Source: Paracoccaceae bacterium
GTDB taxonomy: Bacteria > Pseudomonadota > Alphaproteobacteria > Rhodobacterales > Rhodobacteraceae
Length of the DNA stretch: 64,000 bases
Direction of reading: 5' to 3'
NCBI GenBank assembly: GCA_028875855.1
Contig: JAGWVA010000013.1
Span: forward strand, 1-64,000
Part shown: one piece after another, positions 4,653-34,022 of the stretch
How positions within the stretch are numbered: position 1 is the stretch's first letter
How the letters are laid out: each line of letters starts with the position of its first letter
Notes under the pieces: generated by a model
Databases searched by the model: none
The model's input: only the letters and a program-made list of their open reading frames with translations
What the model was told of the DNA's origin: nothing
Translations under genes and position numbers: made by a program

Positions 4653-5587
4653 AACGCCTTCTTCTTCTCGCGCTTCTCGCCGCCGCCCCGCAGGCGCAGG
4701 CGGCCGACAAGCTGACCGTGATGCTGGACTGGTTCGTGAACCCCGATCACGGGCCGATCATCGTCGCCAACCAGCTTGGCTATTTCAAGGATGCCGGGCT
4801 TGACGTGAAGATCATCGCGCCCTCGGACCCGGCCGAGCCGCCGAAGATGGTGGCCGCGGGCAAGGCCGATCTGGCCGTGGCCTATCAGCCGCAGCTGTAT
4901 CTTCAGCATCAGGAGGGGCTGCCGCTGGTGCGCGTCGGCACGCTGGTGGACACGCCGCTTTACTGCGTGCTGACCAAGGCCGACGGGCCGGTGAAAACGC
5001 TTGCCGACCTCAAGGGCCGCAAGGTCGGCTATTCGGTGGCGGGCGTGGAACAGGCGCTGCTGGGCGGCATGCTGCAGCACAACGGCGTCGCGCCCGATCA
5101 GGTCACCTGGGTCAACGTGAACTTCTCGCTCGTGCCGGCGCTGGCTTCGGGGCAGGTCGCCGCCGTCAGCGGCGCGTTCCGCAACTTCGAGCCGCACCAG
5201 CTGGCGAAGCTCGGCCAGCAGGGCCGCTGCTTCAAGCCCGAGGACAACGGCATCCCGCCCTATGACGAGCTGATCTACGAAGCGAACCCCAAGACGATGA
5301 AGCGCGACAGCATCGTGCGCTTCCTTCTGGCGACCGAAAAGGCCGTGGCCTATATCAAGGCGCATCCCGAAGAAGCCTGGAAAGCCTATACGTCCTATGC
5401 CAAGGATCTTGGCGACACGCTGAACCGCGAGGCATGGCAGGACTCGGTGCATTACTTCGACCCCAAGCCGATGGCGCTGGACGCCAAGCGTTACGCCGAT
5501 TTCGGCGCCTTCATGGCGGCGGCGAAGCTGATCCCGGCGGCACCCAAGGTGGCCGAAATCGCCATCGACCCGTCGCAGGCGAAATGA
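4649..5587 (+). CDS. thiY: ABC transporter substrate-binding protein for thiamine pyrimidine precursor
   Basis: 312 residues with an N-terminal signal peptide (MKRLLLLALLAAAPQAQA, cleavage after the second AQA), so periplasmic. NMT1/THI5-like fold: VMLDWFVNPDHGPIIVA near residues 25-41 is the family hallmark, followed by GYFKDAGLDV and LADLKGRKVGYS. It is placed between the salvage kinases and matching ATPase and permease genes, with ATGA overlaps on both sides. By analogy with ThiXYZ it should bind a pyrimidine such as HMP or formylaminopyrimidine; which one cannot be read from the sequence. Confidence 0.88.
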   Translation: MKRLLLLALLAAAPQAQAADKLTVMLDWFVNPDHGPIIVANQLGYFKDAGLDVKIIAPSDPAEPPKMVAAGKADLAVAYQPQLYLQHQEGLPLVRVGTLVDTPLYCVLTKADGPVKTLADLKGRKVGYSVAGVEQALLGGMLQHNGVAPDQVTWVNVNFSLVPALASGQVAAVSGAFRNFEPHQLAKLGQQGRCFKPEDNGIPPYDELIYEANPKTMKRDSIVRFLLATEKAVAYIKAHPEEAWKAYTSYAKDLGDTLNREAWQDSVHYFDPKPMALDAKRYADFGAFMAAAKLIPAAPKVAEIAIDPSQAK

Positions 5588-6306
5588 CCCTTGCCGACCC
5601 CTCTGCGCCCCCGCCCGCCGGGCTGGAGGGGTCGGCCTGGTTCGGCACCGCCCGCCTGTTCGAAGGCGTGCGGCTGGACCTTCCCATGGGCTGGACCTGC
5701 CTCATCGGCCCTTCGGGCGCGGGCAAGTCCACGCTTCTGCGCCTGCTGGCGGGCCTTCCCGCCGCGGTGCGCTTCGACGGGCGGGTGACCGCGCCCGGCC
5801 GCATCGCCTATCTCGCCCAAGAGGACCTGCTGCTGCCCCGCCTGTCGGCGCTGGCCAATGTCACGCTGGGCGCGCGTCTTCGGGGCGGGCCGGTGGACCG
5901 GGGCGAGGCGATGGCGCTGCTGGAGGCCGTGGGGCTGAAGGGGATGGAGGCGCGCCGCCCGGGCCAGTTGTCGGGCGGTCAGCGACAGCGCGTGGCGCTG
6001 GCCCGCGCGCTGATGGAACACGCGCCCCTTGCCCTGCTGGACGAGCCGTTCTCGGCGCTCGATGCCGCGAACCGCGAGCGGATGCAGGATCTTGCCTTGA
6101 CGCGGCTCGCGGGCTGCCGGGTGCTGCTGGTCACCCACGACCCGTTCGAGGCGCTGCGGCTTGGGCAGCGCATCCTGCTTCTGAACGGCGGGCGGCTGGA
6201 AGAGATCGAGGCCCTGCCCGGCAAGGCCCCGCACGGGCCGCAGACGCCGGGCTTCGGCGCGCGTTACGACGAGGTGATGGCCCGGCTGAAGGGGGCGGTC
6301 GCATGA
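5584..6306 (+). CDS. thiZ: ABC transporter ATP-binding protein, thiamine precursor uptake
   Basis: 240-residue cytoplasmic ATPase that energises the ThiXY importer. Seen: Walker A GPSGAGKST near residues 43-51, Q-loop around AYLAQEDLLLP, ABC signature LSGGQRQRVALARAL near 130-145, Walker B LALLDEPFSALDA and the switch VTHD. Its first ~25 residues diverge from the usual strand pattern of ABC ATPases, giving a slightly short N-terminal sheet. The start ATG overlaps the thiY stop; a longer open frame upstream runs inside thiY and was rejected. Downstream it overlaps thiX by ATGA. Confidence 0.9.
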   Translation: MTLADPSAPPPAGLEGSAWFGTARLFEGVRLDLPMGWTCLIGPSGAGKSTLLRLLAGLPAAVRFDGRVTAPGRIAYLAQEDLLLPRLSALANVTLGARLRGGPVDRGEAMALLEAVGLKGMEARRPGQLSGGQRQRVALARALMEHAPLALLDEPFSALDAANRERMQDLALTRLAGCRVLLVTHDPFEALRLGQRILLLNGGRLEEIEALPGKAPHGPQTPGFGARYDEVMARLKGAVA

Positions 6307-7019
6307 GGGGGATCGCGCTCCTTGCGGCCTTCGGCGCGCTTTGGCAGGCGGTGATCGTGCTGACCGGCGTGCCGCCCTTCATCCTGCCCGCGCCCGCCCG
6401 CGTTCTGGCCGCGCTCTGGAGCGCGCGGGCCATGCTGGCCGAGAATGCCGCCGTCACGGGGATGGAGGTGTTGCTGGGCATGGTCATCGGCTCTGCGCTC
6501 GGGATCGGGGCGGCCGTGGGGATGGCCCTGTCGCCGTGGCTGTGCCGCGTGCTGCGCCCCGCGCTGGTCGCAAGCCAGGCGGTGCCGGTCTTTGCCCTCG
6601 CCCCGGTGCTGACGCTGTGGCTGGGGTTCGGGACGCTGCCGAAGATCGTGATGACGGTGCTGATCGTCTTCTTCCCGCTGGCCTCGGTCTTCCTTGATGG
6701 GCTCTTGGCGGTGCCCGAAGGGATGCTGGACCTTGGCCGCCTTGCCCGCGCGCCCGGCTGGCGGGTGCTCGTGTTCCTGCGGCTGCCGATGGCGCTGCCG
6801 TCGCTGGGGGCAGGGCTCACGGTCGCGGCGGTCTATGCGCCGATCGGGGCTGTGATCGGCGAATGGGTGGGCGCCGCGCAGGGCCTTGGCTACGTGATGA
6901 CGATGGCGAACGCACGCAGCCAGACCGACGTGATGTTCGCGGCATTGGTCGTGCTGGTGGCGATGACGCTGGCGCTGCACTGGGCTGCCGGTCGGCTGGG
7001 CGCGATGCTGCGGGGGTAG
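6303..7019 (+). CDS. thiX: ABC transporter permease, thiamine precursor uptake
   Basis: 238-residue inner-membrane permease of the taurine/nitrate/HMP (BPD_transp_1) type, with about six hydrophobic segments starting with an N-terminal one from IALLAAFGALW. The EAA-type coupling loop is visible near residues 150-165 (LGRLARAPGWRVLVFLRLP), just before PSLGAGLTVAAVYAPIGAVIGEW. It is the last gene of the thiMEDYZX operon and is followed at once by a strong GC hairpin that probably ends the transcript. Confidence 0.9.
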   Translation: MRGIALLAAFGALWQAVIVLTGVPPFILPAPARVLAALWSARAMLAENAAVTGMEVLLGMVIGSALGIGAAVGMALSPWLCRVLRPALVASQAVPVFALAPVLTLWLGFGTLPKIVMTVLIVFFPLASVFLDGLLAVPEGMLDLGRLARAPGWRVLVFLRLPMALPSLGAGLTVAAVYAPIGAVIGEWVGAAQGLGYVMTMANARSQTDVMFAALVVLVAMTLALHWAAGRLGAMLRG

Positions 7020-7021
7020 GG

Positions 7022-7053
7022 CAGCGCCCGCCCCGCCCCCACGGCGGGCGCTG
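7022..7053 (+). terminator. Probable terminator hairpin after thiX
   Basis: CAGCGCCCGCC (7022-7032) pairs perfectly with GGCGGGCGCTG (7043-7053) around a 10-base C-rich loop, followed by TCCTTGTCG. It begins two bases after the thiX stop. The T-rich tail is weak, as is common in GC-rich genomes. Confidence 0.65.
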
Positions 7054-7089
7054 TCCTTGTCGCTTGAGACGCGCCGCGCGCGCGGGGCG

Positions 7090-7386
7090 TCACACCGCCT
7101 TCGGCTCATAAACCTCCATGATCTGCACCTTGGCGGGGGCGACCATGTCGCTGGCGTGATCCCTTGCCAGCAGGTCGCGGTGGGTCGCGGCGGCGGCATC
7201 GGCGTCTTCGCGCGTCTGCCAGACCGAGAAGGAGCCGTATTCCCCCTTCGCCTCGTCGATGAACATGAAATACACCGCCACGAAGCCCTTGCAGCGGCGG
7301 TAGAGCGCGTTGGCCTCGTCCCCGATGCGCGTGGCGGTCGCGCGCGCGCCGGGCTTCACATGGATTGTCACCAGTCGTGCAAACAT
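7090..7386 (-). CDS. Antibiotic-biosynthesis-monooxygenase-like small protein
   Basis: 98 residues with an ABM/dimeric alpha-beta barrel pattern: a beta strand FARLVTIHVKPG, a helix around RIGDEANALYRRCKGF, strand FVAVYFMFID and a late strand KVQIMEVYEP. Such proteins are small cytoplasmic oxygenases or stress-related binding proteins; the substrate is unknown. The start is set at MFARLV because GGGAGG lies a few bases upstream; longer in-frame starts lack a ribosome site. It is co-oriented with the flavin reductase-like gene 74 bases upstream. Confidence 0.75.
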   Translation of the reverse strand: MFARLVTIHVKPGARATATRIGDEANALYRRCKGFVAVYFMFIDEAKGEYGSFSVWQTREDADAAAATHRDLLARDHASDMVAPAKVQIMEVYEPKAV

Positions 7387-7460
7387 CCGATCCTCCCTCA
7401 TGCCGTGCGGAAAAGGGTCCGCCCGACAGAGGATCGGCACAAGTCACGAAGCTGCGAGGG

Positions 7461-8069
7461 CTACTTCTCCCCCGGCCGGGTCATCTCGAAGACCTCTGTC
7501 ACGACGCTGTAATCCTTGTATCCCAGCCGCGCGACGGGCTTGAAGCGGGTCACGTCGAAGCGCCCGTCCACCATGCAGTCGTCGCGCAGGTGGACGCCCA
7601 CGACTTCGCCAAGGACAAGGAAATTGCCCTGCCCCTCCAGCGTCACGATCTGCGTCATGCGGCATTCCAGGCTTGCGGGCGCGCCGGCCACGCGCGAACA
7701 GGCGATCGTCTCGCAGGCCGCGCGCGCGATGCCGGCATCGGTGAATTCGTCCGTCTCCTTCGGCCAGGGGCCGGAGGTCCGGTTCATCGCCTCGCGCGCG
7801 GCATATTCCACGATGTTCACGCAGAAGACGCCCGTGTCGCGGATATTCGACAGGCTGTCCTTGCCGAAGTCGCGGTCGCCCTTGGTCCCTGTCGAGGCGA
7901 ACATGACCTGCGGGGGCACATAGGCCACGGCGTTGAAGAACGAGTAGGGCGCGAGGTTCTCGGACCCGTCCGCGCCGCGGGTGGACACCCAAGCGATCGG
8001 CCGGGGCGTCACGATGGCGTTGAACGGGTTGTGCGGCAGGCCGTGGCCATCGGCAGGGCGGTAGAACAT
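7461..8069 (-). CDS. Flavin reductase-like (DIM6/NTAB) flavoprotein
   Basis: 202 residues, single split-barrel FMN-binding domain. Seen: PRPIAWVSTRGADGSENLAPYSFFN near residues 22-46, the typical FMN-binding opening of this family, then VMFASTG and later HLRDDCMVDGRFDV and YCRLGYKDY-like strands before the C-terminus. The family includes flavin reductases and uncharacterised oxidoreductases, so the exact reaction is not determinable. It is divergent from the GNAT gene and precedes the ABM-like protein on the same strand. Confidence 0.85.
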   Translation of the reverse strand: MFYRPADGHGLPHNPFNAIVTPRPIAWVSTRGADGSENLAPYSFFNAVAYVPPQVMFASTGTKGDRDFGKDSLSNIRDTGVFCVNIVEYAAREAMNRTSGPWPKETDEFTDAGIARAACETIACSRVAGAPASLECRMTQIVTLEGQGNFLVLGEVVGVHLRDDCMVDGRFDVTRFKPVARLGYKDYSVVTEVFEMTRPGEK

Positions 8070-8165
8070 CGGGGCTCCTTCGGGATCGAGCGGTTTGCCC
8101 CTGACCTAGGGCCATGCTACGCGCGTTTCCAGATGATTCCCGCCGGCCGGAGGACAGGGGCCCGC

Positions 8166-8669
8166 ATGTATCAGCTTGACGAGGAAAGCCCCGCCGATCT
8201 GTGGGAGGTGGAGGCGCTCTACGACCTCTGTTTCGCGCCGGGGCGGACGGCTCTTTCGTCCTACCGGCTGCGCGACGGCGTGGCCCCGGTCCGGGAGCTG
8301 TGCCTGACCCTGCGCGAGGATGGCGTGCTGGCCGCCGCGATCCGCTTCTGGCCCGTGCGTGTGGGCGGCAAGCCCGTCCTGCTTCTGGGCCCCGTCGCCG
8401 TCCACCCGACCCGGCAGGGCGAGGGGCTGGGCGGCTACCTGATCCACGAAAGCCTCGCCGAGGCGCGGCGCCTTGGCTGGGAGCGGGTGATGCTGGTGGG
8501 CGATGCGCCCTATTACAGCCGCTTCGGCTTTCGCAAGCTGGCGGACGTGGTGATGCCGCCGCCGACCAACCCTGACCGGGTTCTGGGGTTCGAACTGGTC
8601 ACGGGGGGCTGGAAAGGCGTTGCGGGCGAGGTCGAGAAATGGACCGACGCCCAATGTGGTCCAGTCTAG
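8166..8669 (+). CDS. GNAT family N-acetyltransferase
   Basis: 167 residues. The acetyl-CoA-binding motif is clear: LGPVAVHPTRQGEGLGGYLIHESL near residues 77-100 contains the RxGxG loop (RQGEGLG), followed by VMLVGDAPYYSRFGF near 119-133, the motif-B region seen in YhbS-type GNATs. Substrate unknown. I chose MYQLDEES as start because GGAGG lies 12 bases upstream; another in-frame ATG lies 33 bases upstream. The base composition drops sharply right after its stop codon, marking the border of an AT-rich islet. Confidence 0.85.
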   Translation: MYQLDEESPADLWEVEALYDLCFAPGRTALSSYRLRDGVAPVRELCLTLREDGVLAAAIRFWPVRVGGKPVLLLGPVAVHPTRQGEGLGGYLIHESLAEARRLGWERVMLVGDAPYYSRFGFRKLADVVMPPPTNPDRVLGFELVTGGWKGVAGEVEKWTDAQCGPV

Positions 8670-8677
8670 GTCTACTT

Positions 8678-8713
8678 CTGAAAGTTATGCAGCGAGATGA
8701 AATCAACTTTCAG
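8678..8713. repeat. 9-bp perfect inverted repeat at the left edge of the AT-rich islet
   Basis: CTGAAAGTT (8678-8686) and AACTTTCAG (8705-8713) are exact inverted copies separated by 18 bases. The element begins nine bases after the GNAT stop codon, where the sequence switches to AT-rich. It could be an operator, a hairpin, or a trace of insertion; no matching copy is seen at the right edge. Confidence 0.6.
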
Positions 8714-8769
8714 TTGCTTAGCGTCCTCGTAGGAGTCATCTTTCATCGTCCCTATTTGGAGATGTTACG

Positions 8770-9072
8770 ATGGCAACTCATGAAAACGAAATCGCCATGG
8801 CTGTCTTGCGCGTTGCTGGCAAGCAGCCGAATGGCGTCGCGACATTTAAGCGACTGTATAAGGAAATTCCAAATGTAATTGCCCTAGACAGGGATGACCG
8901 TGCGGCTTCTCAAACGAGAAATGGTGAGGAAATGTGGCAACAGATCGTTCGCAATATTAAATCGCACGACAAAACGGAAGGTAACTACATCGCCGAAGGA
9001 TGGCTCGAGTCTGTTCCGCGCGTCGGCTACCGTATCACTACACTGGGAAAGAAAAAGTTGCTCAATTGTTGA
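8770..9072 (+). CDS. Small winged-helix-like hypothetical protein in AT-rich islet
   Basis: 100 residues, no firm family. It starts MATHENEIAMAVLRVAG, has a helix-turn-helix-like stretch (PNGVATFKRLYKEIPNVI) and ends with SVPRVGYRITTLGKKKLL, the strand-turn-helix close often seen in small winged-helix domains next to restriction or methylation genes. TGGAG lies 8 bases before the ATG. Codon use is AT-rich, unlike all neighbours. It is convergent with the methyltransferase gene; only two bases separate the stop codons. No nuclease motif is present. Role unknown; DNA binding is an inference. Confidence 0.6.
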   Translation: MATHENEIAMAVLRVAGKQPNGVATFKRLYKEIPNVIALDRDDRAASQTRNGEEMWQQIVRNIKSHDKTEGNYIAEGWLESVPRVGYRITTLGKKKLLNC

Positions 9073-9074
9073 GC

Positions 9075-9665
9075 CTATGAATATCGAGCCTTATAGCCCG
9101 GTTTGAGCCAACGAAGTTCGGTTCCTGAACTATCTTTGTCCCATACGAACCATGCGTATGCGGTGGTGCCGCTTCCTTTAACCTCGGCTCCGGCTGGATA
9201 GAAGGTTATACGTTCACTGAAAACCCAGACCCTTGATGGCGGAGTTAAGGAGAAAATGGATCTTTGACGGTTTGCGCCCTCAAGGAAAGCTAGTCGAAGC
9301 AGTAAGGCAAACTTCCGTTGCGCCGCTGCAAGGCCCGCCCCCACAAATCCTTCTGCAGCGTTATAGGGAGGATTTGTGACGATATTGTCTGATCGTTGAT
9401 CCGTTTTCAGAAAATCAATTCCCGACTCGCCAAACCCGCGGTCATACAGGTCGGAACTACGAACGTTTTGACCAGTCTCTTCGAGTACTCGTGACATTGC
9501 CCCATTGCCGCAGGCGCATTCCCAGATATTGCCAGAAAATACCTCGTTGTCGATCAGAGCAAATGTAGCCCAGGGGGGCGTAGGAAAAAAGTCAGGCCCA
9601 CTTAGGTCAGCGAACCGCTTGGTTGTTGGCTTGAAGCCGCCGTGCAGATTGTATGTCGTGTCCAT
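9075..9665 (-). CDS. Phage-type adenine-specific DNA methyltransferase
   Basis: 196 residues. Seen: PTPPWATFALID near residues 28-39, the SAM-binding motif ECACGNGAMSRVLEETG near 49-65, acidic SSDLYDRGFG, and the catalytic motif IVTNPPYNAAEGFV (NPPY) near 94-107. The later RLAFLEGANRQ, RVWVFSERI and AYAWFVWDK segments match my recollection of small methyltransferases carried by prophages of Rhizobiales and Rhodobacterales. There is no cognate endonuclease gene beside it, and no clear ribosome site before the ATG. AT-rich codon use indicates horizontal acquisition. Target sequence unknown. Confidence 0.8.
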   Translation of the reverse strand: MDTTYNLHGGFKPTTKRFADLSGPDFFPTPPWATFALIDNEVFSGNIWECACGNGAMSRVLEETGQNVRSSDLYDRGFGESGIDFLKTDQRSDNIVTNPPYNAAEGFVGAGLAAAQRKFALLLRLAFLEGANRQRSIFSLTPPSRVWVFSERITFYPAGAEVKGSGTTAYAWFVWDKDSSGTELRWLKPGYKARYS

Positions 9666-9886
9666 TCGAAAAACATAGCAGAATCATGATGTTAGTCAAT
9701 ATCGACGATGTTCGAGCTAAGTGACTCAAATGACTCGTAAAAGTCTTCTGAATGAGGCATTCCCTGAATCGATGGGCCACTGTTGTCATCTCCGACGCCC
9801 CCGCCGATTGATCCGCTGAAAGGCCGATGCTAGCCTCGCACCCGGGTCCGTGTCCGCGCATCGGGCCCGCTGGGTGGGAGGTGGTC

Positions 9887-10687
9887 GTGGATATCGTCGT
9901 CTGCACGCGGTTTTCCTATTTCGGGCGGTCGGGCTGGCAGAGCGATTTCTCGCAGGACAAGGCGCTTCTCTTCGCGCCCGAACGGCTGACCGCGCGGCTG
10001 GCGACGTTCCAGTCGATCACGTTGCCATCCCTTGTCGCGCAGACGCGGCAGGCGTTTCACCACTTCGTGCTGACCAGCGATGCCTTGCCCGATTGGGCGA
10101 TGGAGCGTCTGCAGGCGGCGCTGCGGGGGGCCTATGGCGACGAGAGCCGCTATACGATTTCGGCCAAGCCCGTCGCGGGGGCGAAGAAATACCTGTCGGA
10201 ATTCCTTGTCCGCCGGTTCGGCACCGATATCGCGGCGCAGGTCGTGCTGGACGACGACGACGGGCTTGCGGCCGTCTTCATGGAGGACCTCGCGCCCCGG
10301 CTGGACGCCATCGCGGCGGCGGAGGCAGAGGGGCGGCTGAGCTTGCCCTATTTCGTCAGCTACCCCTACGGCTATGCGCTCGACATGCGGGGCGACGGCA
10401 CGGCAGAGCTTTACCGGCACAGCTACGATTTCATCAACCTCGGCCTGACCATGGTCGCCCGCCCGCAGGATCGCAACATCTTCGCCGTCGATCACCTGAG
10501 CGCGCCCAAACGCTATGGCGTGGAACTGGTGGAGCGCAAGCAGATGTTCGTCCGCTCCATGCACGGCTTCAACGACTCCCGCGTCGATGTCACCCACCGC
10601 TGGGTGCGCGAGGAGGACTGGCACCGGCAGGAGGATATCTTGTCCGCTCTGCCTTGCCTGCGCCCGCTGGCGGCCGTGCAGGGCTGA
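9887..10687 (+). CDS. Rhamnosyltransferase-like putative glycosyltransferase
   Basis: About 266 residues. It opens DIVVCTRFSYFG, followed by FAPERLTARLATFQSITLPSLVAQT and FHHFVLTSDALPDW, the arrangement of the Rhodobacterales putative rhamnosyl transferase family (PF11316 type). VVLDDDDGLA near residue 120 is the acidic cluster expected for metal and nucleotide-sugar binding. No membrane segment; cytoplasmic. The start is uncertain: I use a GTG at 9887 after GGGAGG, but a GTG two codons earlier or an ATG at 9827 is possible. GC content is again high, so this lies outside the AT-rich islet. Confidence 0.7.
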   Translation: MDIVVCTRFSYFGRSGWQSDFSQDKALLFAPERLTARLATFQSITLPSLVAQTRQAFHHFVLTSDALPDWAMERLQAALRGAYGDESRYTISAKPVAGAKKYLSEFLVRRFGTDIAAQVVLDDDDGLAAVFMEDLAPRLDAIAAAEAEGRLSLPYFVSYPYGYALDMRGDGTAELYRHSYDFINLGLTMVARPQDRNIFAVDHLSAPKRYGVELVERKQMFVRSMHGFNDSRVDVTHRWVREEDWHRQEDILSALPCLRPLAAVQG

Positions 10688-10725
10688 ACCTTGCGGAGCG
10701 CCGCCCCACCGCCTACCTTCCTGCC

Positions 10726-11496
10726 ATGGACACACCCGATCCCGCCGAACGCCCCGTGACCTTGCCCGCCGCGCCCCGCGCCCAGGTTCCCGCCGCCGAG
10801 ATCGCAGCGCTGGCCGCCCGCCAGCGTCGCGCCGGCGGGCTGGCGATGAAGCTTGTCAACATGGCCGGCACGCGGATCGAGAACCGGCTGGAAAGCCTGC
10901 CCGACGGGGTGAAGGACCGCATCGAGGCCGCCGCCTCGCGCGCGCTGGAGCAAAGCTACCTGCTGGCCGGGCGCACCTCGGACATCGCGCCGCAGATGGG
11001 CCATCGCGGGCACCTCGCGCTTGCCACGCTGAGCGGTGCGGTCGGCGGGGCCGGCGGGATCGCCACGGCGCTGGCCGAACTGCCTGTGACCGTCACCGTC
11101 ATCTTCCGCGCACTGCAGAAGATCGCGGCGGACCATGGCTTTGACCCCGAGGCGGCCGAGACGCGGCTGGAATGCCTGCAGGTCTTCGGCTCGGGCGGGC
11201 CGCTCAAGCGCGACGACGGGGTGAACACCTCGTTCCTGTCGGCGCGGGTTGCGCTGAACGGCGCGGCGCTCAATCGGGTGATCGCCACCGTCGCCCCGCG
11301 CTTTGCCGCCGTGCTGGGCGAAAAGCTCGCCGCGCAGGCGGTGCCGCTGCTGGGATCGGTCGCGGGGGCGGGGATCAACTACGCCTTCGTGAATTATTAC
11401 CAGGAAATGGCCCATGTCCGCTTCGGCCTGAAACGGCTTGCGCTGGACTATGGCGAGGCGCCGGTGCTGGAGGCGTTCCGCGCGGCGGCTGGCTAG
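10726..11496 (+). CDS. EcsC family protein
   Basis: 256 residues. The centre contains GHLALATLSGAVGGAGGIATALAELPVTVTVIFRALQKIA (described by position: residues ~90-130), an alanine/glycine-rich amphipathic stretch characteristic of the EcsC family, and a C-terminal YAFVNYYQEMAHVRFGLKRL. The N-terminus is Pro/Ala-rich. EcsC homologues are of unknown biochemical function and often membrane-associated. It follows the glycosyltransferase gene after 38 bases on the same strand. A short GC hairpin and a dispersed repeat lie just after the stop. Confidence 0.8.
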   Translation: MDTPDPAERPVTLPAAPRAQVPAAEIAALAARQRRAGGLAMKLVNMAGTRIENRLESLPDGVKDRIEAAASRALEQSYLLAGRTSDIAPQMGHRGHLALATLSGAVGGAGGIATALAELPVTVTVIFRALQKIAADHGFDPEAAETRLECLQVFGSGGPLKRDDGVNTSFLSARVALNGAALNRVIATVAPRFAAVLGEKLAAQAVPLLGSVAGAGINYAFVNYYQEMAHVRFGLKRLALDYGEAPVLEAFRAAAG

Positions 11497-11512
11497 GGGC
11501 GGCCGTCGCAGG

Positions 11513-11565
11513 CTGGGGGGCTGTCTGCCCCCCAGACCCCCCGAGGATATTTTCCGACAGAAAAT
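11513..11565. repeat. Dispersed intergenic repeat, copy A, with hairpin
   Basis: CTGGGGGGC (11513-11521) pairs with GCCCCCCAG (11527-11535), followed by ACCCCCCGAGGATATTTT. This G-tract/C-tract hairpin with a GAGGATATTT tail resembles an intergenic repeat I recall from Rhodobacteraceae genomes; a diverged copy lies near 56750. It follows the EcsC gene and may also act as its terminator. Confidence 0.55.
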
Positions 11566-11734
11566 GGGGCGGGCGAGGATCGTGGCAGACGATCCCGAGA
11601 CGTCCGTTCAGCCCGGCACGACGATGGGCAGGCGCATGGTCAGCCTCCGGCCGGAGACCGTGAAGACGCGGCGCAGGAAGGGTGCCCGGGTCAGCGAAAC
11701 CGTCGAATGGGCGTTTGCCGATCCCTGAGGCCGC

Positions 11735-13990
11735 TCACAGGCCTTCGTTCTGCCGCGACAGCCAGTCCATGATCGCGGGGCGCACGGTGGTGCGGCCCAC
11801 GCGGATCTCGTCGTCGATCACCCGGCGCACTTCGGCAAGGTTCACGCGGCGGATGAGCGACTTGACCGGGCCGATGGAGGCCGGGCGCATCGAGAGCGTC
11901 CGCAGCCCCATGGCGGCAAGGCAGAGCGCCTCGACCGGGCGGCCGGCATCCTCGCCGCAGAAGGAGAGCGCCGTGCCGCTTTCGACGCAGCGGTCCACGA
12001 TATGCCCGATGAAGGTCAGGAAGCTTGCGTTGAGCGTGTCGTAGCGCCGCCGCACGCGTTCGTTCTCGCGGTCGGCGGCGAAGAAGAACTGCTTGAGGTC
12101 GTTGCCGCCGATCGAGATGAAATCGGCCAGATCGAAAAACTGCTTGGGCGCAAAGGCGAGGCTCGGGGTTTCCAGCATGGCGCCGATCTCGATCCGCTCG
12201 GGCAGGACATGGCCCAGTTGCCCCTCGCGGTCGATCTCGCGCAGAAGATGGTCGCGGGCTTCTAGGAATTCCTCGAACTGGGCGACGAAGGGGAACATGA
12301 CCATCAGCGGGCGCCCGTTCGCGGCGCGCAAAAGCGCCTGCAACTGCATCCGAAGCACGCCCGGCTTGTCCAGCCCCACGCGGATCGCGCGCCAGCCCAT
12401 CGCGGGGTTCGGCTCGTCCACGCGTTTCATGTAGGGTAGGACCTTGTCCGACCCGATGTCGAGCGTGCGGAAGGCCACGCGGCGGCCCTTGGCGGCATCG
12501 AGCACGCGGGAATAAAGCGCCGCGAGTTCCCCCCGCTTGGGCACCTGGTTGCGGATCAGGAATTGCAGCTCGGTCCGGAAGAGGCCCACGCCCTCGGCGC
12601 CCGACCCTTCGAGCGAGGGCAGGTCGGCCATCAGCCCCGCGTTCATGTGCAGCCCGACGGTCGTGCCGCAGAGCGCCTGCGCGGGCAGCAGGCGCAGGCC
12701 CGCGTAGCGTTCCATCGCCTGCGCCTGCATCGCGATCTTGTCGCGGAAGGCGGCGGCGACGTTCTCGTCGGGGCGCAGGTGGACGATGCCCTGATCGCCG
12801 TCCACAAGGATGCGGTCGCCGTTCAGCGCCTCGGTCGTGATGCGCTCGGCATGGATCACCAGCGGGATCGCCAGCGCGCGGGCGACGACGGCGGCGTGGC
12901 TGCCGACCGAGCCCTCTTCCAGCACGACGCCCTTGAGCTTGCGGCCGTATTCCAGAAGCTCTCCGGGCCCGATGTTGCGCGCCACCAGCACGGGGTTCGG
13001 CGGCATCGCGGCCCCGGTGTCGTGGCCTTGCCCGGTCAGGATGCGCAGCAGGCGGTTCGACAGGTCGTCGAGATCGTTCAGACGTTCGCGCAGATAGGGA
13101 TCGGGCACGTCGTTCAGCCGCGCGCGGGTGGCGGACTGTTCCTTTTCCACCGCCGCCTCGGCCGACAGGCCGCGGTGGATGTCCTCTTCCATCCGGCGCA
13201 GCCAGCCGCGGGAATTGGCGAACATCCGGTAGGCTTCCAGCACCTGCTGCTGTTCGCCATCCTCGCTGTCGGCCTTGGCCAGAAGCGTATCGACCGACAG
13301 CCGCAGCTTTTGCACCGCGTCGCGCAGGCGTTCGCATTCGGCCTGCGGATCGTCGGCGACGGGGTTGGTGATCAGGACCCGCGGTTCGTGCAGCCAGACG
13401 TGACCCTCGGCCGTGCCTTCCTGCCCCGTGCCGCCGCGAAACAGGACCGGGTGCTGGTGCGGGGCGGACAGCGCCTCGCCTTCCCCCACGAAGGCGCCAA
13501 GCTCGGCCATTTCGGCCAGAACCATGGCGACGACCTCGATCGCATAGACCTCGTCGTCGGAATATTGCCGCGCGGCCTTGGCCTGCACGACAAGCACGCC
13601 CAGCATCTCGCCCAGCCGCTGGATCGGCACGCCGAGGAAGGCGGAATAGATTTCCTCCCCCGTCTCGGGCATGTAGCGGAACCCGCGTTCCGATGGCGCG
13701 TTGCCGGTGTTGATCGGCTTGCCCATCTTGGCCACGCGGCCCACCAGCCCCTCGCCCAGCCGAAGCCGGGTCTGGTGGACGGATTCGGCCTTCAGCCCCT
13801 CGGTCGCGCACAGTTCCAGCGTGTCGTCGTCGCGGAACAGGTAGATCGAGCAGACCTCGCATCCCATCGAATCCGCGATAAGCGAGGTGATGCGGTCGAG
13901 ACGCTCCTGCCCCTTGCCGGCCTCCGCGAGGGTGTCGCGCAGGCGGCGCAGGAGCTTGCGGCTTTCACTTTCGGTCCCGTCGGCCATCAT
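11735..13990 (-). CDS. ptsP: Phosphoenolpyruvate-protein phosphotransferase, nitrogen PTS (EI-Ntr)
   Basis: First enzyme of the nitrogen-related phosphotransferase relay: takes phosphate from PEP and passes it to NPr. 751 residues with an N-terminal GAF domain (~20-165) that distinguishes EI-Ntr from sugar EI, then the EI N-domain with the phosphorylated histidine in SVGSHAAVVAR (His365), and a C-terminal PEP-binding barrel with GVGLFRTELQFLIR, MLETPSLAF and SFCGEDAGRP. The start is one of two adjacent ATGs. Located 38 bases after lysC on the same strand; no HPr or EIIA gene is near. Confidence 0.95.
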   Translation of the reverse strand: MMADGTESESRKLLRRLRDTLAEAGKGQERLDRITSLIADSMGCEVCSIYLFRDDDTLELCATEGLKAESVHQTRLRLGEGLVGRVAKMGKPINTGNAPSERGFRYMPETGEEIYSAFLGVPIQRLGEMLGVLVVQAKAARQYSDDEVYAIEVVAMVLAEMAELGAFVGEGEALSAPHQHPVLFRGGTGQEGTAEGHVWLHEPRVLITNPVADDPQAECERLRDAVQKLRLSVDTLLAKADSEDGEQQQVLEAYRMFANSRGWLRRMEEDIHRGLSAEAAVEKEQSATRARLNDVPDPYLRERLNDLDDLSNRLLRILTGQGHDTGAAMPPNPVLVARNIGPGELLEYGRKLKGVVLEEGSVGSHAAVVARALAIPLVIHAERITTEALNGDRILVDGDQGIVHLRPDENVAAAFRDKIAMQAQAMERYAGLRLLPAQALCGTTVGLHMNAGLMADLPSLEGSGAEGVGLFRTELQFLIRNQVPKRGELAALYSRVLDAAKGRRVAFRTLDIGSDKVLPYMKRVDEPNPAMGWRAIRVGLDKPGVLRMQLQALLRAANGRPLMVMFPFVAQFEEFLEARDHLLREIDREGQLGHVLPERIEIGAMLETPSLAFAPKQFFDLADFISIGGNDLKQFFFAADRENERVRRRYDTLNASFLTFIGHIVDRCVESGTALSFCGEDAGRPVEALCLAAMGLRTLSMRPASIGPVKSLIRRVNLAEVRRVIDDEIRVGRTTVRPAIMDWLSRQNEGL

Positions 13991-14028
13991 CCGCTTCCAG
14001 ACAGCCGCTTTCCGGGGTCACGGAAAGG

Positions 14029-33089: not shown

Positions 33090-34022
33090 CGCGCGTCCTC
33101 CTTCCGGGATGCGGCGGAGCGCAGCCGCAGCGACACGCCGGCGGGGTCGGTCCCGGTCAGATCGCCGGTCGCGGGGTCCTCGGTCAGACGCGCGCGGGCA
33201 GCGGTGAAGGTGGCCTCGTCCGACGTGACCAGCGTATAGGTCATCAGCCGCGCCGAGGTGGCCGGCGCAGACCGGACGCCCGGCCCCGCCCAGATGTTCA
33301 CCGCAAGCCGGTGGGTATAGGGCGCGCCGGTTCCCATGTCGGCCATGCCGAGACCGTCAAGCGTCAGGTTGCGGGCAAAGCCCAGACCCTCGAACCACGC
33401 CAGGGCAGACTCGAGGGCGGGCACATGCAGGTGCAGATGTGCCACCCTTGCGTCGCGGTGCAGCGGGAGCGCGGGATCGCGGCCATCGGCCATCGGCCAG
33501 CGCGCGTTCCGCGCGTATGTCCAACGGTTCCCGCCCGCTGCGGACCCGTCCGTCGGAGTCGATCAGCACAAGACGGCCGCTGACGGTGCTGAAACTGCCG
33601 AAGCGTTCGGGCGTCTCCCACGCGATCTCGATGCCGTGGCCGTCGGGATCGCTGAGATAGAGCGCCTTGGACATCAGGTGATCGACCGGCGAGAAGGCGA
33701 TGCCGAGGTCGATGAATCGCTGAATCCGTCGCGAGAACTCGGCCTTCGAGGCCATTCCGAGGGCCACGTGATAGAGCCCGGCATGGCCCCGGGCGACGGG
33801 GGCGCGGGCGCCGGGGATCAGCACGACCAGCGTGCGGTCCGCCGTGCCAAGCGCGAGGCCGGGACCTTCGGCGGGACGGCGGACCAGCCCGACGACGCCG
33901 GTCCAGAAGGCCTCGGCACGGTCAAGGTCGGTGACCGAAAGGCTCAGCGTCTCCCAGGTCAGCCGTTCTGGCAGGTTCTCGGCGGCCCGCTGCCGGGCCA
34001 GCGCAAGCGCTTGGGTGTCCAT
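33086..34022 (-). pseudogene. Two-domain VOC (catechol-2,3-dioxygenase-like) protein, frameshifted by a 7-bp duplication
   Basis: The N-terminal frame (from 34022) encodes one vicinal-oxygen-chelate domain: WETLSLSVTDLDRAEAFWTGVVGL near 22-45, GLYHVALGM and LYLSDPDGHGIEIAWE. It runs to ERALADGR and then leaves homology. The next frame continues GRDPALPLHRDARVAHLHLHVPALESALAWF and completes the second VOC domain to 33086. At the junction GGCCGAT is duplicated in tandem (plus strand 33485-33498); removing one 7-base copy restores one frame across the whole gene. Metal ligands of both domains are otherwise present. Sits between doxX-like and b561-like genes. Confidence 0.85.
33485..33498. repeat. 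7-bp tandem duplication causing a frameshift
   Basis: ATCGGCC occurs twice back to back (33485-33491, 33492-33498; GGCCGAT on the coding strand). One extra copy shifts the VOC dioxygenase frame by one base. Typical of replication slippage. Confidence 0.85.

Follow-up and report, generated by a model that had tools for sequence, protein, structure and literature searches.

A two-gene insertion of low G+C content

The sequence studied was a window of 64,000 nucleotides (nt) from a Paracoccaceae bacterium (GCA_028875855.1, contig JAGWVA010000013.1, positions 1–64,000); 'the window' refers to this whole stretch of DNA. At 8670..9829 it contains an AT-rich inserted cassette, to which no strand was assigned, that starts right at the stop codon of a GNAT gene and whose ends are accurate to a few bases. 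Only two genes are found in this islet, one for a 100-residue protein (8770–9072, plus strand) and one for a 196-residue DNA methyltransferase-like protein (9075–9665, minus strand). They are convergent, with two bases (9073–9074) between their stop codons, and the reading frames agree with an earlier sequence-only reading that had placed an NPPY methyltransferase and a 100-residue protein in this arrangement. The analysis indicates that the islet is neither a scar nor a lone gene, but one of many copies of a mobile cassette that consists of two genes and belongs to Alphaproteobacteria.

The G+C content of 8670–9829 was 49.5%, compared with 67.4% for the remaining window, and the lowest value among 3026 other 1160-bp window segments was 59.3%. 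G+C at third codon positions was 49% in the methyltransferase gene and 51% in the gene of the small protein, against 85–90% in the four neighbouring genes measured. These values bear out the sharp shift in composition and codon use that had been reported after the GNAT stop, with a recovery before the glycosyltransferase gene. The GNAT gene ends at 8669; the listed open reading frame of the glycosyltransferase begins at 9827, and its homology to relatives starts about 20 codons further in.

Comparison with a close relative lacking the islet, which the sequence-only reading had proposed as a check, revealed an empty site: in the genus relative G002, the GNAT gene lies directly beside the glycosyltransferase gene. 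The left junction is the GNAT stop codon TAG, and on the right the homology to G002 restarts at about TAGCCT (9831), as judged by eye; since it restarts there, the coordinates given earlier (8670–9830) were right to within a few bases. The sequence CTAG is common to both borders (8666–8669, including the GNAT stop, and 9830–9833). In G001, G003, G005 and G006, the GNAT gene is followed by a gene that in the window lies beyond the glycosyltransferase, and neither the islet nor the glycosyltransferase was present in the loci read. The methyltransferase had no match in any of the six genus relatives (G001–G006), and the islet is single-copy within the 3.86-Mb draft genome. The islet is an insertion, and the original observation was confirmed.

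There was no transfer RNA gene within 5000–14000 and no direct repeat joining the two borders (two short repeat families, of 11 and 10 nt, are located elsewhere). The islet has no recombinase frame, and neither shared terminal repeats nor a transposase were seen at its borders in the window. These scans agree with the earlier statement that integrase, transfer RNA and border repeats are lacking, and the signs of a prophage remnant, namely an integrase, att repeats and further phage genes, were absent from the islet. A terminator-like inverted repeat, GCTCAA-CAA-TTGAGC (9060..9074, no strand assigned), lies at the convergent gene ends; within 8600–9900 of the window locus, four terminator-like sites were found against 1.7 expected.

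The 196-residue protein (9075..9665, minus strand) was classified as N6-adenine DNA methyltransferase-like from its profile match, predicted fold and alignment. It matches PHROG_799, a family of phage DNA methyltransferases, over residues 19–193 (E 1.9e-59), and it has the (D/N)PPY motif expected of N6-adenine methyltransferases of that family, as NPPY at residues 98–101. No Pfam model above its cut-off and no NCBIfam model matched. The predicted structure is a methyltransferase fold, with low confidence for residues 1–23. PADLOC returned a weak, generic type II match (MTase_II, E 0.025) for the methyltransferase and nothing for the small protein. The nuclease of a type II restriction–modification system was not found in the islet, where the sole companion is the 100-residue winged helix with no match to a nuclease family, as had been noted; the search for nucleases was confined to the islet. 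The gene is predicted to encode a small DNA methyltransferase of the m6A type that has no accompanying nuclease. It resembles solitary adenine methyltransferases such as CcrM and Dam in having no restriction enzyme beside it, and differs from them in being accessory, mobile and paired with a dedicated convergent DNA-binding gene.

The 100-residue protein (8770..9072, plus strand), referred to below as the partner, was recognized as a winged-helix protein from an AlphaFold2 model, a weak Mrr_N match and invariant residues. The model is a confident winged helix, with a mean predicted local distance difference test value of 92.9 and a predicted template modelling score of 0.84. Against the N-terminal domain of Mrr (Pfam Mrr_N, PF14338) the partner scored 17.2 bits, under the curated cut-off of 29.5; several homologues also match this domain weakly, and, unlike Mrr, the partner has no Mrr catalytic domain. 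Its fold neighbours are transcription regulators, e.g. MarR, PadR and forkhead domains, at Z ≤8.3, a level that the tool rates as common.

Recurrence and mobility of the pair

The search covered one genome per species (84,980 species) and gave 160 loci with methyltransferase relatives, of which the best 80 (70–83% identity) were kept; counts out of 80 refer to these. A winged-helix gene was adjacent and convergent in 76 of them. The partner profile matched in 77, the 77th being L073, in which a transposon separates the two genes, and there was no partner match in L061, L065 and L084. When the distance between the genes was measured, 53 of 69 gaps were overlaps, 28 of them of exactly 4 bases (L073 was dropped). 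The transposon in L073 carries its own methyltransferase frame: at L073:6625–9560, a transposase, which we take to be akin to ISXO2/IS1595, and a 628-residue DNA methyltransferase frame stand between the cassette methyltransferase and the partner, making this a methyltransferase-bearing transposon within a methyltransferase cassette.

In 385 evenly drawn genomes of the class, the methyltransferase was present in six (E ≤1e-50, a threshold of our choice) and the partner in eight (E ≤1e-3); all six methyltransferase genomes had the partner, always adjacent (hypergeometric P 6e-12; with the window genome left out, 3e-10). Among 394 genomes of the family of the window, 35 had some methyltransferase match; seven were at least 65% identical, and the partner was found in all seven. 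The family, class and 80-locus counts overlap, because some genomes are identical records. Co-occurrence elsewhere, another check that had been proposed, was strongly positive, and the recurrent pairing supports the earlier suggestion of a solitary methylase with a companion.

The cassette is almost confined to Alphaproteobacteria, in which it was found in several orders. Three of the best 80 loci carry titles from outside the class and may be misbinned or contaminated: L044 and L082, metagenome-assembled genomes (MAGs) of Phycisphaerae and Acidobacteriota, and L115, from Frankia sp. The Micavibrio MAG L119 is placed in Bdellovibrionales by the NCBI ranks. In the literature, of which our coverage was partial, we found no paper with a title or opening of the abstract that described the pair or a mobile methyltransferase under GANTC control.

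Three kinds of partner were distinguished by eye from the sequences: (i) those like that of the window; (ii) those with the motif FSQKVRNLVSH; and (iii) those of about 225 residues with an extra N-terminal domain of an unrecognised family. Five loci were set apart as iiib (L082, L085, L087, L093 and L104). The partners of about 225 residues (L045, L047, L048, L051, L091, L096, L103 and L117) lie downstream of the methyltransferase; their N-terminal domain has the motif PQAI.WRP and gave no Pfam match over the cut-off in the two that were scanned. In an alignment of 60 partners (that of the window and 59 of 75 listed references, type iii excluded), R50, Q58, N62, H66 and G77 were invariant and R61 and S65 almost invariant. 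Residues 58, 62 and 66 are spaced by four on or just past a predicted helix (55–65), and the conserved residues may form a DNA-contacting face in the model. Partner paralogues outside the cassette carry the same residues, and the motif therefore marks a wider family. Such paralogues lie beside a gene that by eye is ribonucleotide reductase-like in three genomes of the family of the window (L012:1477–1797, L013:1483–1824 and L014:1498–1800), and the loci read contain no methyltransferase gene; of these paralogues, the one that was scanned exceeds the Mrr_N cut-off. On a plasmid of Agrobacterium pusense, a distant winged-helix relative (L226:4959–5315) is located close to a methyltransferase of the MmeI type.

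Among weaker methyltransferase relatives (L020–L041), a partner match was seen in one of 22 loci. This locus, in genome G183, has an approximately 40%-identical methyltransferase that overlaps tail to tail with a convergent 251-residue protein composed of a winged helix and an HNH domain (PF01844 at 21.5 bits, cut-off 21.4), and the bare partner is therefore similar to the half of a restriction enzyme that binds DNA. In that G183 has HNH fused to a winged helix beside the same kind of methyltransferase, it also resembles the fusion endonucleases that read N6-methyladenine (DpnI, HhiV4I, wH-HNH; PMC11037411), with which the cassette partner shares the winged-helix DNA-binding domain. According to that source, 87% of winged-helix fusions have no methyltransferase within three genes (PMC11037411), whereas the cassette has no nuclease and its methyltransferase was adjacent in the 76 loci, which were found through the methyltransferase. 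The possibility exists that the cassette is a restriction–modification system minus its nuclease, the partner being a decayed half of a winged-helix–HNH protein that is kept by methyltransferase addiction or by chance, as the G183 arrangement would suggest. Among 335 family genomes, however, 38 matched the winged helix–HNH protein and G183 was the sole full-length match, the others having the HNH or the winged-helix part alone. Moreover, a bare partner of about 100 residues with invariant residues has been kept in several orders, often with overlapping gene tails, which is unlike decay. We regard this explanation as improbable.

The composition of the cassette sets it apart from its surroundings wherever it was found: its G+C was below that of the flanks in 80 of 80 loci (mean 52% vs 64%) and below both flanks in 72 of 74, it was unrelated to host G+C (r 0.04, p 0.70), and only six of 627 flank segments were shifted as much as the median cassette. 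The flanking genes are mostly not common to the loci; the largest cluster (eight loci) is the long partner type itself, and the others comprise at most six loci. The pair is plasmid-borne in two cases, on pHAE2 of Paracoccus and on p1 from a bacterium of the Acetobacteraceae. On pHAE2 (L224, 5777 bp), a tiny plasmid, the pair is accompanied by a DndB-family gene, a replication gene and a resolvase. In L068, L087 and L093, from a Rhodobacterales MAG and two rhizobia, differing partner types occupy the same neighbourhood, with genes identified by eye as ruv and tol, possibly an insertion hot spot. On a methyltransferase tree made by a quick method (10 starred branches of 83), the order label changed 24 times, against 35–39 times in five shuffles (76 rows, nine orders), which indicates some vertical or ecological signal together with much transfer.

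The relation to phages was close only at the family level. Methyltransferase relatives were found in 157 of 50,697 records of a phage collection, and all 157 were less than 60% identical, compared with 70–83% for the best 80 genome loci; the earlier label 'phage-type' thus holds for membership of PHROG_799 and not for these closest copies. A phage origin of the pair was rejected, as only two records of the phage collection matched the partner, both labelled Zymomonas, and the one that was opened is a plasmid. On this Zymomonas plasmid (L122:3939–5267), the partner domain makes up the C-terminus of a protein annotated as DinD, which also has a BRO-N domain. A scan of putative viral contigs with the partner gave no relatives. 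With the methyltransferase alignment it gave 538, of which the best 80 were kept; five of these were 67–79% identical, and three of the five had a partner match (L144, L147 and, partially, L145). The 75 weaker relatives (L149–L223, 42–52% identical) had none. The 'prophage scar' offered by the sequence-only reading was rejected: the two genes are found together and undamaged in several orders, and nothing beyond them is present in the islet. For the other loci, flanks were considered only in comparison with one another and were not annotated for phage genes. The interpretation given in the sequence-only reading was supported in part.

It is also conceivable, as the sequence-only reading had offered, that the pair serves in anti-restriction or against phages, with methylation shielding the cell or incoming DNA and the partner sensing or blocking unmethylated foreign DNA. 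The mobility of the pair, its plasmid-borne copies and the methyltransferase relatives in the phage records would fit such a function. No effector domain was recognized, however, and PADLOC gave nothing for the partner and a weak generic match for the methyltransferase; we give this function little credence.

GANTC sites upstream of the methyltransferase gene

Upstream of the window methyltransferase, a consensus scan predicted a sigma-70 promoter (9672..9699, minus strand) with the elements TTGACT and TATGTT separated by 16 nt and TG before the −10 element, in a layout that is repeated in many relatives. A proximal GANTC site, in the form TGATTCT, lies in the promoter spacer adjoining the −10 element (9681..9685, minus strand), 15 nt before the ATG. 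The sequence further contains a distal GANTC pair, GAGTC-ATTT-GAGTC, spaced by 9 nt start to start (9723..9736, minus strand). If the promoter is used as predicted, the transcript would start at or near the A of the ATG, i.e. without a leader. This GANTC-rich promoter is an addition to what the sequence-only reading had described.

Across the cassettes, GANTC occurred 196 times in 12,000 nt upstream of the methyltransferase gene, corresponding to 16.3 per kb. The two flanks had densities of 1.53 and 1.70 per kb, and the methyltransferase gene itself had 1.45 per kb. Upstream of the partner the density was 4.9 per kb, but the start codons listed for type iii partners are wrong, which makes the counts for that type meaningless and the overall value imprecise. 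The commonest positions relative to the ATG were −20 (28 sites), −60 (14) and −51 (13), followed by −68, −13 and −59. A core consisting of GATTC and an extended −10 element was present in 44 of 81 upstream regions and a GANTC pair in 38, the frequencies expected from the flanks being 0.0012 and 0.0014 per 150 nt, respectively, or about 0.1 of each among 81 regions. AT-richness was rejected as the cause of the enrichment, as shuffling with the dinucleotides preserved left 0.73 sites per region, whereas the real sequences had 2.78 (55 type i regions).

The common layout reads GAGTC-N4-GAGTC-ACTTAG...TTGACTAA...TGATTC-TG-NTANNNT, and in 24 of 45 core matches the −10 element is followed by six bases and then the ATG, which predicts a leaderless start. 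A second layout, seen in Bradyrhizobium, combines an inverted pair (TGAGTCA-aaa-TGACTC) with a leader of about 25 bases. Altogether, 52 of 81 upstream regions had the core or the pair: 8/8 in Rhodobacterales, 13/14 in Sphingomonadales, 19/36 in Hyphomicrobiales, 3/7 in Rhodospirillales, 3/6 in Acetobacterales and 2/2 in Caulobacterales, the remaining groups being small or unplaced. The weaker viral relatives had 2.2 GANTC per kb, with the core in 0 of 69 and one pair, and the weaker relatives from family and class genomes (26 loci) had 0.2 per kb and neither core nor pair; in these counts start codons were estimated and regions shorter than 120 nt were dropped.

Proposed host control and its alternatives

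GANTC is the site methylated by CcrM. In the genome of the window, the only one searched in this respect, GcrA is encoded (E 1.5e-47), and so is a CcrM-like protein with a RAMA domain; the gene of the latter is located downstream of a gene judged by eye to encode RNase HII. GcrA, a cofactor of sigma-70 in Alphaproteobacteria, promotes the open complex at promoters that are methylated (PMC7403470), and its hypothesized activation motif is TGATTCG or, more broadly, YGAKTCK (PMC7987155). The proximal site of the window has this form and lies near the predicted start. Of the proximal sites of all cassettes, 37 of 45 fitted YGAKTCK, compared with 150 of 1243 flank GANTC sites, although the middle T was fixed by the search pattern and only the outer letters were free. 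In the Caulobacter promoters under CcrM and GcrA (ftsZ, mipZ and ctrA P1), GANTC is found near or between the −35 and −10 elements as in the cassette, and mipZ has two juxtaposed sites (PMC3708114, PMC3667746); at ftsZ, where the site lies between the two elements, artificial hemimethylation increases activity (PMC3708114). Unlike these promoters, that of the cassette drives a mobile methyltransferase gene and often has a distal pair at a recurring distance.

We propose that host CcrM would methylate the GANTC sites in the cassette promoter and that GcrA, together with sigma-70, would then fire it, so that production of the methyltransferase would require a working CcrM and GcrA and would follow the state of these two. 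The partner would most likely bind DNA according to its methylation, either at the target of the methyltransferase or as a regulator of the cassette. A mobile, nuclease-free pair of a writer and a DNA binder under CcrM–GcrA control is the best explanation, to which we assign a probability of about 50%. Its promoter part, i.e. that host CcrM and GcrA switch on the methyltransferase gene, is somewhat better than an even bet when taken alone, and the chances are about balanced that the winged helix works without a nuclease as a methylation-sensitive binder of the new mark or of the cassette promoter. The fullest version, a mobile epigenetic relay in which a second methyltransferase is gated by CcrM marks via GcrA and a winged-helix reader recognizes the new mark or GANTC, falls a little short of even odds.

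Several points weigh against this explanation. The 80 loci were picked by likeness to the methyltransferase of the window, and the sample therefore favours its clade. The consensus promoter hit is weak on its own, because one was found in 8600–9900 (at 9672–9699) where shuffles give 1.2. The core and the pair are both missing from 29 of 81 upstream regions, including all eight loci of type iii, and from all five of the basal cassettes, i.e. the clade at 65–68% identity and the second plasmid copy; GANTC control would therefore be a frequent trait of the main clade, to which the copy in the window belongs, and not a need of the pair. As for GcrA, it is reported that Brevundimonas shows no preference for the extended motif and that the motif alone is a poor proxy for GcrA regulation (PMC7987155), and that two GcrA-bound promoters were unaffected in activity by mutation of GANTC (PMC3667746). 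The partner has a winged-helix fold, as DpnI-like readers do; fold searches returned generic winged helices only, and by sequence no PDB entry matched at E <0.25.

The main rival is self-methylation, in which the cassette methyltransferase itself recognizes GANTC, alone or as part of a longer site, and so modifies the promoter of its own gene, with CcrM and GcrA as bystanders. Methylases that regulate themselves via their own sites are known, as in autoregulated restriction–modification genes. The sites stand at recurring positions in the methyltransferase promoter and are far fewer upstream of the partner (with the type iii reservation given above), and in L111/L121 and L063/L076 they track the methyltransferase lineage and not the partner type. 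However, another enzyme that writes GANTC marks would be superfluous and could disturb the timing of hemimethylation, because host CcrM should already methylate GANTC (judging from the CcrM-like protein of the window genome). Furthermore, the proximal site fits the GcrA motif, and the basal cassettes have the same pair without the sites. Self-methylation by a GANTC-specific enzyme is, in our view, unlikely, at perhaps less than half the weight of the proposed host control.

Somewhat less likely still is a self-contained switch in which the partner is a repressor on the GANTC pair and its binding is set by methylation. In its favour, the upstream sites other than the proximal one are TGANTCA palindromes in 57 of 154 cases compared with 40 of 1243 flank sites, and some form inverted pairs. 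Sites were found in 0 of 8 type iii loci and in 48 of 65 loci of types i and ii (Fisher p 8e-5, uncorrected for relatedness). When relatedness was corrected for, only four pairs on starred branches remained and there was no signal either way. In addition, the partner paralogues near the ribonucleotide reductase-like gene have no GANTC pair in the three loci read. Between close methyltransferases the partner type differs and the sites are kept (L111/L121, support 98; L063/L076, support 80), and since the promoter stays when the partner changes, control by the host or by the methyltransferase is favoured over control by the partner. The absence of GANTC sites from all eight type iii cassettes runs against this ordering.

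Solitary methyltransferases are usually listed gene by gene, without a partner or a control logic. The cassette is small, recurs in many natural copies and comes with a defined partner and a candidate switch; from its sequence it is a mobile two-gene methylation module, often with what appears to be a shared GANTC-built switch. The separate parts have known relatives; their combination and wiring were not found in the part of the literature that we covered. The findings suggest a wandering gene plugged into the host's own marking system. If the promoter does respond to CcrM and GcrA, the cassette would clearly exemplify a mobile gene licensed by the cell-cycle methylation of its host. The relay, if true, would tie a methylation programme of foreign origin to the cell cycle of Alphaproteobacteria and would explain why the cassette is nearly confined to that class.

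Two further observations concern the window outside the cassette. A second GANTC pair with a core near 33714–33726 was set aside, since by eye it seems to lie within a coding region. The neighbour of the islet, a rhamnosyltransferase-like gene (9827–10687), is variable: among the six genus relatives, only G002 and G004 had strong matches, and the match in G006 was 28 bases long.

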